Below, piece by piece: positions 21,976 through 27,127 of a stretch of 64,000 nt of DNA. Both the position numbers and the translations under genes were made by a program. Below the pieces are notes generated by a model. That model had not been told where the DNA came from. It did no database searches and saw nothing but the letters and a program-made list of their open reading frames with translations. This DNA comes from Streptococcus pluranimalium (GTDB lineage Bacteria > Bacillota > Bacilli > Lactobacillales > Streptococcaceae), in assembly GCF_002953735.1 (NCBI RefSeq), contig NZ_CP025536.1:812001-876000 (forward strand). The letters run 5' to 3'. Positions within the stretch are counted from its first letter, which is position 1. Every line of letters starts with the position of its first letter.

Positions 21976-22620
21976 ATGGAAGAAGTTAAGGGACTTTTAG
22001 TCATGGATGTTGATTCGACTTTGGTCAAAGAGGAAGTGATTGACTTGCTGGGTGAGGAAGCAGGTGTCGGAGATTTGGTTGCTGACATTACTGAACGAGC
22101 TATGCGAGGAGAATTAGACTTTGAGGAAGCTTTAGCGGAGCGAGTTGCCGTGCTGAAGGGATTACCAGAATCTATTTTGAATAGGGTTTATGGCAAGATT
22201 CACTTTAATAACGGTGCTAAAGCACTAGTCGATGAACTGCATGCGCGTGGCTACAAGGTTGGCTTGGTGTCAGGTGGTTTTCATGAAACCGTAGATCGCC
22301 TAGCTAAGGAGTTGGGGATTGACTATGTCAAGGCGAATCGTCTGGAAGTCGTTGATGGCTATCTGACAGGAAAAACTTACGGTGATATTGTGACCAAAGA
22401 AACTAAGGTGACTAAATTAAAAGAATGGGCAAAAGCCAATAACCTTAAGCTCTCCCAAACCATAGCAATGGGAGATGGCGCCAATGACCTTCCTATGATC
22501 AAAAAAGCTGGTATTGGCATCGCCTTCTGCGCCAAACCAATCGTTAGAGAAGAAGCACCCTATCAAATCAATAAACCAGATTTATATAAGGTGATTGAGA
22601 TAATAGATAAGAAAAAGTAA
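21976..22620 (+). CDS. serB: Phosphoserine phosphatase
   Basis: A 214-residue HAD hydrolase removing phosphate from phosphoserine to make serine. Motif I is MDVDSTLVKEE (residues 10-20), motif II VSGGF, and motif III GDGANDLPMI with the upstream K. GGAGG precedes ATG 21976. It is followed by its own terminator and then the CRISPR relic. Confidence 0.93.
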   Translation: MEEVKGLLVMDVDSTLVKEEVIDLLGEEAGVGDLVADITERAMRGELDFEEALAERVAVLKGLPESILNRVYGKIHFNNGAKALVDELHARGYKVGLVSGGFHETVDRLAKELGIDYVKANRLEVVDGYLTGKTYGDIVTKETKVTKLKEWAKANNLKLSQTIAMGDGANDLPMIKKAGIGIAFCAKPIVREEAPYQINKPDLYKVIEIIDKKK

Positions 22621-22654: not shown

Positions 22655-22750
22655 TCAAAAAAATAGCACCGAATCGGTGCTCACTTTTTCAAGTTGTGTA
22701 CGGACTAGCCTTATTTTAACTTGCTGTGTTGTTTCGAATGGTTCCAAAAC
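22655..22750 (-). ncRNA. tracrRNA: Type II-A tracrRNA (orphan, no cas9 nearby)
   Basis: All parts of a streptococcal Cas9 tracrRNA can be read on the minus strand in order: anti-repeat from 22750 to about 22715; the bulge AAGTTAAAATAAGG; nexus GGCTAGTCCG (22710-22701); stem-loop CAACTTGAAAAAGTG (about 22697-22683); terminator hairpin AGCACCGATTCGGTGCT (22681-22665); and a T-run. No base that should disrupt the fold was noticed. Normally its promoter lies further 5' between tracrRNA and cas9; here that position holds a spacer and a repeat, so the native promoter appears lost. Only a weak TATAAC at 22836-22831 is seen. Confidence 0.9.
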
Positions 22751-22800
22751 CTAGCTAAAACATACAACGTGCATCCAGCAGTTTTAGAGCTGTGTTGTTT
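22715..22800 (+). CRISPR. Relic of a type II-A CRISPR array: hybrid repeat, one 30-bp spacer, terminal repeat
   Basis: Bases 22723-22750 match the last 28 bases of the 36-bp type II-A repeat used in S. mutans-like systems (repeat recalled from knowledge), ending GGTTCCAAAAC. Bases 22751-22780 are exactly 30 bp, the usual spacer length. Bases 22781-22800 are the first 20 bases of the repeat (GTTTTAGAGCTGTGTTGTTT), after which it diverges, as terminal repeats often do. The overlapping 12 bases of the two partial repeats are identical. The left repeat is shared with the tracrRNA anti-repeat. Confidence 0.85.
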
Positions 22801-23090: not shown

Positions 23091-23453
23091 ATGAAAGAAG
23101 ATAGTCAAGCTGTAAAGAACTATATTGATATGCATCATGTAGCTCACCGTGATTTCCTATTAAGGTTACGGAGTATGATTAAAGCCTATCTGCCCAGTAG
23201 TTGTGAAGGCATAGCTTGGTCAATGCCTTCCTATTGGCAAAATACTTATTTGATTCATTTTCAAGCTTTTAAACATCATGTCAATGTTTATGTTGGTCCT
23301 GAAGCAGTAGCTTATCTCCAAGAGAACTACCCTGAATTATCCTTTACTAAGCGAGGGTTTCAGTTGCGCTATGATCAGGAAATTCCTACTAACCCCCTAA
23401 GAGCTGTATGTCAATGGCAATTACAAAAGTACGGAGATAATGATGAGGCTTGA
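23091..23453 (+). CDS. DUF1801 domain protein (YdhG-like)
   Basis: A 120-residue protein matching the DUF1801 / YdhG-like family: the N-terminal IDMHHVAHRDFLLRLRSMIK, the central EGIAWSMPSYWQN..IHFQAFKHHVNVYVG and a C-terminal LRYDQEIP. Relatives are called iron chaperones, but the role is weakly supported. Its end overlaps rsuA. Confidence 0.75.
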   Translation: MKEDSQAVKNYIDMHHVAHRDFLLRLRSMIKAYLPSSCEGIAWSMPSYWQNTYLIHFQAFKHHVNVYVGPEAVAYLQENYPELSFTKRGFQLRYDQEIPTNPLRAVCQWQLQKYGDNDEA

Positions 23454-24171
23454 TAAATTTTTAGTCGACAGCGGAATAGGCTCTCGCACACAAGTAAAAG
23501 CCATTCTTAAAAAGAAACAGATTACGGTAAATGGAAAGATAGAATCATCTCCAAAGGTGCATATAACTCCTGAAACGGATCAAGTGTGTTACGATGGAGC
23601 ACCTTTAATTTATGAGCAATTTCTTTACTATATGCTGCATAAACCTTCAGGGGTCATTTCAGCAACTGAGGATGCTCACCATAAAACCGTTCTAGATTGT
23701 TTGGATGATCTAGCAAAACAAAAAGCTGTCTTTCCAGTTGGGCGATTGGATATTGATACCGAAGGACTGCTTTTATTAACTAACAATGGTCAGTTGGCTC
23801 ATGCAATGCTATCACCTAAGAAGCACGTTGATAAGCTCTATCAAGCAGAAGTAGCAGGTATAATGACTAAGCAAGATCAATTATCTTTTCAGAGTGGTAT
23901 CACATTAAGCGATCATGATAGTTTACCAGCTCAGCTCGACATTATTTCTGTGAATGAAGAAAGACAGACTAGCCTGGTTAATATCATCATTCAAGAGGGA
24001 AAATTTCACCAAGTCAAACGGATGGTAAAAGCCTGCGGTAAAGAAGTTACTTACCTCAAACGTCTTTCTATGGGCCCCTTATTACTTGATAATAGTCTAG
24101 AAAAAGGTGACTGGCGCCGTCTGACTGAAGAAGAATTAGCTGCTTTGGAAGTGTTTGGTGTACCATTATAG
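23443..24171 (+). CDS. rsuA: 16S rRNA pseudouridine synthase (RsuA family)
   Basis: A 242-residue enzyme with an N-terminal S4 RNA-binding domain (MRLDKFLVDSGIGSRTQVKAILKK) and a catalytic domain with GRLDIDTEGLLLLTNNG, where the first D is the conserved nucleophile. ATG 23443 gives the usual MRLDK start eight bases after GGAG; ATG 23440 just before it is possible. The target base in 16S rRNA is inferred from the family. Confidence 0.88.
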   Translation: MRLDKFLVDSGIGSRTQVKAILKKKQITVNGKIESSPKVHITPETDQVCYDGAPLIYEQFLYYMLHKPSGVISATEDAHHKTVLDCLDDLAKQKAVFPVGRLDIDTEGLLLLTNNGQLAHAMLSPKKHVDKLYQAEVAGIMTKQDQLSFQSGITLSDHDSLPAQLDIISVNEERQTSLVNIIIQEGKFHQVKRMVKACGKEVTYLKRLSMGPLLLDNSLEKGDWRRLTEEELAALEVFGVPL

Positions 24172-25813: not shown

Positions 25814-27127
25814 ATGAGTATGTTTCTAGATACAGCCAAGATTTCGGTTAAGGCTGGACGTGGCGGAGATGGTATGGTTGCCTTCCGTCGTGAAAAATAT
25901 GTCCCAGACGGTGGTCCATGGGGCGGTGATGGCGGCCGTGGCGGTAACGTTATTTTTGTTGTAGATGAAGGACTTCGTACCTTGATGGATTTTCGTTACA
26001 ACCGTAAGTTCAAGGCTAAAGATGGCGAAAAAGGAATGACTAAAGGAATGCACGGTAAAGGTGCACAAGACCTTTATGTGAAGGTTCCCCAAGGAACCAC
26101 AGTTCGTGATGCAGAGACTGGAAAAGTGCTAACCGACTTAATTGAAAACGGTCAAGAATTCGTCGTTGCCCGAGGCGGTCGAGGTGGTCGAGGTAATATC
26201 CGCTTTGCGACACCAAGAAATCCTGCACCAGAAATTGCTGAAAATGGCGAACCTGGTGAAGAACGTCAACTTGAACTTGAATTGAAAATTTTAGCAGATG
26301 TCGGTCTAGTTGGGTTCCCATCAGTTGGAAAATCAACGTTATTGAGTGTTGTTTCAGCAGCTAAACCTAAAATTGGTGCCTATCACTTTACAACTATTGT
26401 ACCTAATATTGGTATGGTTCGCACTAAATCTGGTGAGAGTTTTGTCATGGCTGACCTCCCAGGATTGATTGAAGGAGCTCATCAAGGTGTTGGTTTAGGG
26501 ACACAATTCTTACGTCACATCGAGCGTACTCGCGTTATTCTCCATGTTATTGACATGTCTGCTAGCGAAGGTCGTGATCCTTTTGAAGACTACAAGACAA
26601 TCAATAACGAGCTGGAGTCTTACAACCTTCGTTTGATGGAACGTCCGCAGATTATTGTGGCTAATAAAATGGATATGCCTGAATCACAGGAAAATTTGAA
26701 GACATTCAAGGAGCAATTGGCAAAAGACTACGATGAATTTGACGAATTGCCGATGATTTTCCCAATTTCAAGTATTGCTCACCAAGGCTTAGAAAATCTG
26801 CTTGAAGCAACGTCTGAACTCTTGGATAATACAGATGAATTCTTGCTTTATGATGAATCAGATATGCAGGATGATGAGGTATATTACGGCTTCAATCCAG
26901 ATGAACGCCCATTTGATATTTCACGTGATGATGATGCTACTTGGGTCCTTTCTGGTGAGAAACTTGAAAAACTCTTTGTTATGACCAATCTCGAACGAGA
27001 TGAATCTCTCATGAAATTTGCCCGTCAATTGCGTGGCATGGGTGTCGATGATGCCCTTCGTCAACGTGGTGCTAAAGATGGGGACATCGTCCGTATTGGC
27101 AACTTTGAGTTTGAGTTCGTAGACTAG
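25814..27127 (+). CDS. obgE: GTPase Obg (CgtA)
   Basis: A 437-residue essential ribosome-associated GTPase. It has the glycine-rich Obg fold (residues 1-158, [18 protein letters not shown] repeats), the G domain with G1 [10 protein letters not shown]3 DLPG and G4 NKMD, and the C-terminal OCT domain (about 360-437). AGAGGAAAA precedes the start. It acts in 50S assembly and stress control. Confidence 0.96.

Follow-up and report, generated by a model that had tools for sequence, protein, structure and literature searches.

How does a full-length trans-activating CRISPR RNA (tracrRNA) of the Streptococcus pyogenes type come to be fused to the end of a clustered regularly interspaced short palindromic repeats (CRISPR) array in a genome where no Cas9 is found? 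The question is raised by 64,000 nucleotides (nt) of Streptococcus pluranimalium DNA, hereafter the window (GCF_002953735.1, contig NZ_CP025536.1, positions 812,001-876,000 of the forward strand; all coordinates below are those of the window). We conclude that the fusion is very probably a scar, left where a type II-A CRISPR-Cas9 locus was lost, and that the likely cause is a single recombination event that involved the anti-repeat of the tracrRNA and a repeat far along the array. Its parts are the following.

22659-22800: the scar as a whole, made up of tracrRNA with anti-repeat, spacer and truncated terminal repeat, with unrelated DNA after it
22659..22749, minus strand: full-length tracrRNA of the S. 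pyogenes type (Rfam RF02348, 104.6 bits, model positions 1-92 of 92)
22665..22681, minus strand: terminator hairpin of the tracrRNA, from a scan for terminator-like sequences
22715..22750, minus strand: anti-repeat, read as a CRISPR direct repeat (Rfam CRISPR-DR22, 53 bits, gathering score 50)
22723..22750, plus strand: repeat-identical tract GCTGTGTTGTTTCGAATGGTTCCAAAAC, 28 nt, equal to the 3' end of the repeat
22751..22780, plus strand: the single remaining spacer, 30 nt
22781..22800, plus strand: truncated terminal repeat GTTTTAGAGCTGTGTTGTTT, the first 20 nt of the repeat and the end of the array

The junction between tracrRNA and array

On the plus strand the anti-repeat reads like a CRISPR repeat, as the first-pass annotation of the window had claimed from the letters: the Rfam match spans all of 22715-22750, and comparison with the repeats of cas9-bearing relatives identified GCTGTGTTGTTTCGAATGGTTCCAAAAC as the 28-nt 3' end of the repeat found most often in related arrays, so that the anti-repeat terminates as a perfect CRISPR repeat, in CCAAAAC. 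The spacer and terminal repeat said to follow this perfect end are also there and in register, the spacer having the 30-nt length that accounted for 1086 of the 1143 spacings measured in cas9-bearing relatives. A genome search for the 20-nt terminal repeat at up to 3 mismatches gave one further site, which has 3 mismatches; similar truncated terminal repeats end the arrays of four surveyed genomes (G012, G150, G260 and G259). The remaining spacer would be the array-distal one. Comparison of the spacer with phage records gave 56 partial matches, none covering 80% of it, and its last 23 nt had no match in the viral contigs searched.

The genome is a single contig of 2,065,522 bases, in which searches for Cas9 (TIGR01865) and Cas1 (PF01867) both returned no match. 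As controls, Cas1 was found in 9 of 14 control genomes, and the Cas9 model matched 4 of the 14, in each case below cut-off. Across our survey set of 284 Streptococcus species genomes (the window's included; labelled G###), the Cas9 model scored above cut-off in 111 and gave some match in 116. An assembly mis-join has a negligible probability here: assemblers can err at short repeats, but the shared tract is about 28 nt long, no stray cas9 or cas1 is left in this one-contig genome, and like scars with varying spacers are present in other one-contig genomes (G046 and G327, see below).

Survey of tracrRNAs in the genus

The survey set contained 120 tracrRNA matches in 118 genomes, 71 of them within 3 kilobases (kb) of an above-cut-off cas9 and 49 not. 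Sixty of the 71 cas9-bearing loci and 40 of the 49 others were fetched, the window's own locus being handled separately; the eight left unfetched (G303 contig 11, G277, G161, G217, G271, G148, G118 and G188) were weak matches or lay at a contig end. Among the cas9-bearing loci, a few of which have a broken or partial cas9 (G015, G019, G284 and G056), 59 were used for the promoter test and the 56 with a recognised array for the test of the anti-repeat end. Four of the 40 others (G184, G151, G134 and G018) were set aside as having cas9 on another contig and the promoter in place. G181, whose nearby cas9 is of the short kind and stands behind another gene, was moved to the group without a cas9 of its own. 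This group then comprised 37 tracrRNAs and that of the window, 38 in all. Seven of the 37 carry a cas9 elsewhere in the genome, or nearby in the case of G181 (G017, G276, G256, G182, G193, G245 and G181), and three (G010, G033 and G160) have only sub-cut-off cas9 fragments.

When the 38 were sorted, eight, including the window, had the order anti-repeat, one or two spacers and terminal repeat; eight had an insert before the terminal repeat; in ten the anti-repeat ran directly into the array-distal flank; and 12 showed none of these arrangements. By this sorting 26 of the 38 fit a junction between anti-repeat and repeat.

Anti-repeat end and promoter

The claim that native tracrRNAs diverge from the repeat at the far end of the anti-repeat was borne out, as in none of the 56 cas9-bearing loci with a recognised array did the anti-repeat match the last 7 nt of its own repeat. 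Its end was CCAACA plus one base in 43 of them, against CCAAAAC in the repeat, and a variant in the other 13. An intact locus with the repeat-like end was looked for as well: CCAAAAC closes the anti-repeat in 0 of 59 cas9-bearing loci compared with 10 of the 37 non-window tracrRNAs without their cas9. The outer-end mismatch (CCAACA versus CCAAAA) is near-universal in cas9-bearing loci, the remainder of the anti-repeat being repeat-like, and it may serve the start of the tracrRNA or limit excision.

Promoters were assessed by a consensus test only, in which a sigma-70-like score of 9 or more out of 12 immediately outside the anti-repeat counted as a promoter-like site. Such a site was present in 57 of 59 cas9-bearing loci (shuffled sequences, 221 of 2000) and in 4 of the 41 fetched loci whose tracrRNA has no cas9 next to it. 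All four of the latter have cas9 on another contig, and when loci of that kind were left out the count fell to 0 of 37. The best score at the tracrRNA start in the window was 7 of 12. Because the promoter of the tracrRNA adjoins the outer end of the anti-repeat and would be deleted by excision, the scar is predicted to be silent and the tracrRNA to be untranscribed.

The state of the tracrRNA could be read differently, as that of a scar still at work, with tracrRNA and spacer kept for a Cas9 acting in trans or as a regulatory RNA. The tracrRNA of the window is nearly undecayed at 104.6 bits, as against 75.3 bits in the related G154. However, its good preservation is equally explained by recent loss, which the hardly decayed tracrRNA suggests for the window; the genome has neither Cas9 nor Cas1, and the promoter-like site typical of cas9-bearing loci is missing here as in all 37 other loci of this kind. 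A working scar is accordingly most improbable.

The same junction in other species

A survey of streptococcal genomes for the fusion had been suggested when the junction was first described, and it showed that the fusion is present in other species. A pattern made up of the tracrRNA core, the end of a repeat, a gap of 28-32 nt and the start of a repeat, requiring AAAAC, matched 5 of the 284 genomes, the window's included (G000, G046, G143, G241 and G327), all of them without Cas9; read backward as a control, the pattern matched 0 of 284. Individual reading of the loci added three fusions, in G158, G182 and G154, which the pattern had missed because it requires AAAAC. In G158 the anti-repeat ends in CCAACAC and a 30-nt spacer follows; in G182, which has a short-type Cas9 elsewhere in its genome, the repeat comes one base later, after CCAACAA. 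G154, a relative of the window (serB 86%) with a decayed tracrRNA of 75.3 bits, has a repeat match of 19 of 25 at the same +31 offset, a value reached by 0 of 300 shuffles. The retained spacers differ across all fusions, and G046 keeps two.

In ten more loci the anti-repeat runs directly into the array-distal flank. In all nine that were aligned to their best-scoring cas9-bearing locus, the register of the right flank matches the last repeat's end, at an offset of 34-37 nt (for G034 the offset is 28 against its second-best locus), and in the tenth, G181, the right flank is not in exact register. The proposed exchange can be followed most clearly in three loci, those of G017, G327 and G046. G017 aligns with G135 at 98% on the left up to the tracrRNA and at 95% on the right, where the register again fits the last repeat's end. 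For one of the fusions with a spacer, that of G327, the right flank matches G054 from 31 nt beyond the end of the anti-repeat, which in G054 is where the last repeat begins; a spacer and a repeat therefore remain, as in the window.

The anti-repeat of G046 is a hybrid. It carries the A (GAATAG) of the G260 anti-repeat at a position where the array repeats of G260 have G, and it ends in AAAAC like the repeats, which locates the exchange within the 7 nt GTTCCAA. The left flanks of G046 and G260 are 99% identical, and over 47 nt G046 and G259 share the same array end. On the right, alignment of G046 with G260 begins only 145 nt beyond the end of the anti-repeat, at a point that in G260 lies 1.4 kb after the last repeat. 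Flank clusters and differing spacers together suggest several separate excision events; species that share the same insert may share one event.

These junctions bear on another possible origin, a deletion of some other type (end joining, insertion sequences or stepwise decay) with a separate change of the anti-repeat end to a repeat end. It draws support from the 12 of 38 tracrRNAs that lack their cas9 and show no junction between anti-repeat and repeat, and other routes of loss probably do exist. For the window it is very unlikely, given the exact spacer length and repeat register both here and in other species and the hybrid anti-repeat of G046.

In two of the fusions, those of G158 (locus L189) and G182 (L203), CCAACA is retained and a spacer of about 30 nt still follows, as would be expected had mismatch repair favoured the anti-repeat base during the exchange.

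Flanks of the scar in the window

Four genes around the scar were compared with loci of relatives.

21976..22620, plus strand: serB-like gene for a HAD phosphatase, left neighbour of the scar (Pfam HAD, 2e-28)
23091..23453, plus strand: DUF1801 gene, the first gene to the right (Pfam DUF1801, 3.2e-10)
23440..24171, plus strand: rsuA-like gene for an RNA pseudouridine synthase (Pfam PseudoU_synth_2, 2.4e-23)
25814..27127, plus strand: obgE-like gene (87% to the relative beyond rsuA in G249)

If the locus was excised, its flanks should correspond to the two ends of a cas locus in relatives that keep it, and genes from each side of the scar recur beside such loci. serB also stands to the left of the tracrRNA in the cas9-bearing G319, G249 and G058, with DNA similarity of 72, 72 and 68%, respectively, that runs from serB into the anti-repeat; beyond its array, G249 has relatives of rsuA (66%) and obgE (87%), as found to the right of the scar. 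The first-pass annotation had named alignment on both sides as support. This holds by DNA on the left; the right flank corresponds by gene order, and in G249 only. These neighbours also speak to the idea that the tracrRNA is a young one derived from a relocated repeat and no relic at all, which is vanishingly unlikely, as the tracrRNA is full length and serB adjoins it in complete cas9 loci too.

Named records yielded no sister locus. The best match in the serB comparison was Streptococcus varani (84%). In 27 streptococcal loci searched by tblastn, with up to about 10 kb on each side, no relatives of DUF1801, rsuA, pepS or obgE were found, and a GNAT gene had a weak match in 3; an Rfam scan of 7 of these loci gave no tracrRNA at gathering score.

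Proposed route of excision

In cas9-bearing loci the anti-repeat and the last repeat are direct repeats lying 6.3-11.5 kb apart (median 7.7 kb; the largest distance is limited by the fetched length). The cas genes and most spacers would thus lie between the anti-repeat and one of the array-distal repeats, and a single exchange within some 20-28 nt of shared sequence, which in the window would fall inside the tract 22723..22750, would delete about 6-11 kb, the distance that separates anti-repeat and last repeat in relatives. Lost with it would be the promoter of the tracrRNA, the cas genes and every spacer that precedes the partner repeat. That one exchange suffices we infer from the junctions. 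Recombination between anti-repeat and array repeat, as originally proposed for the window, is supported by the junction itself, by the absence of cas9 and cas1 and by the like scars elsewhere. Homology of such length is short for RecA, and slipped-strand or annealing repair is therefore a possible route. Candidates for the selective cause of the loss are autoimmunity or a need to take up phage or plasmid DNA.

Several observations weigh against this account. Exact matches between anti-repeat and repeat in cas9-bearing loci are short (median of the longest 17 nt, 7-25; a median of 24 of 27 positions identical), the 12 tracrRNAs mentioned above fit no such junction, and the junctions of G158 and G182 keep the native CCAACA. 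A cas9-bearing locus sharing both flanks was available for 19 of the 40 fetched cases and lacking for 21; in G034, G192 and G193 no alignment was obtained on the left next to the tracrRNA. For the window, the array and rsuA of G249 are separated by roughly 2.5 kb of other genes, which do not include DUF1801, and the non-coding right flank is uncovered by any locus-bearing relative, similarity beginning at about 23175; its right breakpoint therefore rests on spacer, repeat and gene order, not on aligned DNA.

Relation to known systems

With the S. pyogenes-type II-A locus, in which the tracrRNA is divergent from cas9, cas1, cas2, csn2 and the array, the window shares the tracrRNA family, the repeat, a 30-nt spacer and the serB neighbour. 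It differs in being without cas9 and cas1, a promoter-like site for the tracrRNA and nearly all spacers, and in having an anti-repeat that closes like a repeat. Array repeats have been described to recombine with each other, spacers being lost as the intervening DNA is deleted (PMC6990116, available portions); here the partner would be the anti-repeat, which lies across the cas genes from the array, and one event would remove the whole system. The same source reports deletion of cas genes or of the whole locus under self-targeting, and S. pyogenes isolates without array or locus are on record (PMC6546361). In these cases the outcome is the same, a strain without CRISPR-Cas, and the portions of the two papers available give neither an anti-repeat route nor a tracrRNA scar. 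Orphan arrays without cas genes, such as CRISPR2 of E. faecalis (PMC5491264, in part), are likewise array remnants, whereas the remnant in the window is fused to a tracrRNA in a genome without Cas9.

Recombination between anti-repeat and array was not found described in the open-access literature, subscription papers being mostly outside this scope, nor in the accessible text of PMC8616872, PMC6990116, PMC6546361 and PMC8730458. As far as these partial sources go, repeat recombination and deletion of cas loci under self-targeting are known (PMC6990116), and what would be new is the tracrRNA anti-repeat as recombination partner, recurring across the genus.

Since the anti-repeat and the array share one orientation and enclose the cas genes, the whole system could be lost in one step, which would help to explain the patchy distribution of Cas9 immunity among streptococci. 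The scar provides a sequence signature by which extinct Cas9 loci can be recognised, and tracrRNA decay allows losses to be ordered (window, hardly decayed, at 104.6 bits; G154 at 75.3 bits). The rate of CRISPR loss, its RecA dependence and its cause would become measurable with one junction polymerase chain reaction. A more speculative idea, which we consider unlikely, is that S. pyogenes-type Cas9 loci are self-excising cassettes, with anti-repeat and distal repeat resembling attachment ends, and that the scar is a landing pad at which competent streptococci could take back a cas9 cassette with its promoter through the same short homology, immunity being lost and regained reversibly. If so, the outer-end mismatch of the anti-repeat would set how often the cassette leaves.

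Insert-type scars and other loci

Six genomes (G032, G049, G177, G218, G030 and G171; loci L185, L184, L181, L179, L175 and L201) have an insert of 0.4 kb between anti-repeat and terminal repeat. It contains a 95-codon frame that had no match in Pfam (G218 tested). In the cas9-bearing G230, an insert 91% similar lies between the last two repeats of the array, like a giant spacer (L216, 8845-9257). In G039 and G045 (L173 and L200) anti-repeat and terminal repeat are separated by a 1.1-kb insert, which contains a coding frame and occupies the place expected for the cas genes; no cas9-bearing example of it occurred among the loci fetched.

The tracrRNA of G181 (L265) has the scar-like end CCAAAAC and stands one gene from a different, short-type cas9, a layout that places a second Cas9 system beside the remnant of a first. 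In G154 (L198 and L143), serB and the tracrRNA remnant are found at 412 kb, and the DUF1801-rsuA-obgE group at 696 kb on the other strand; this separation points to a rearrangement, in one lineage or the other, with a breakpoint close to the former CRISPR site.
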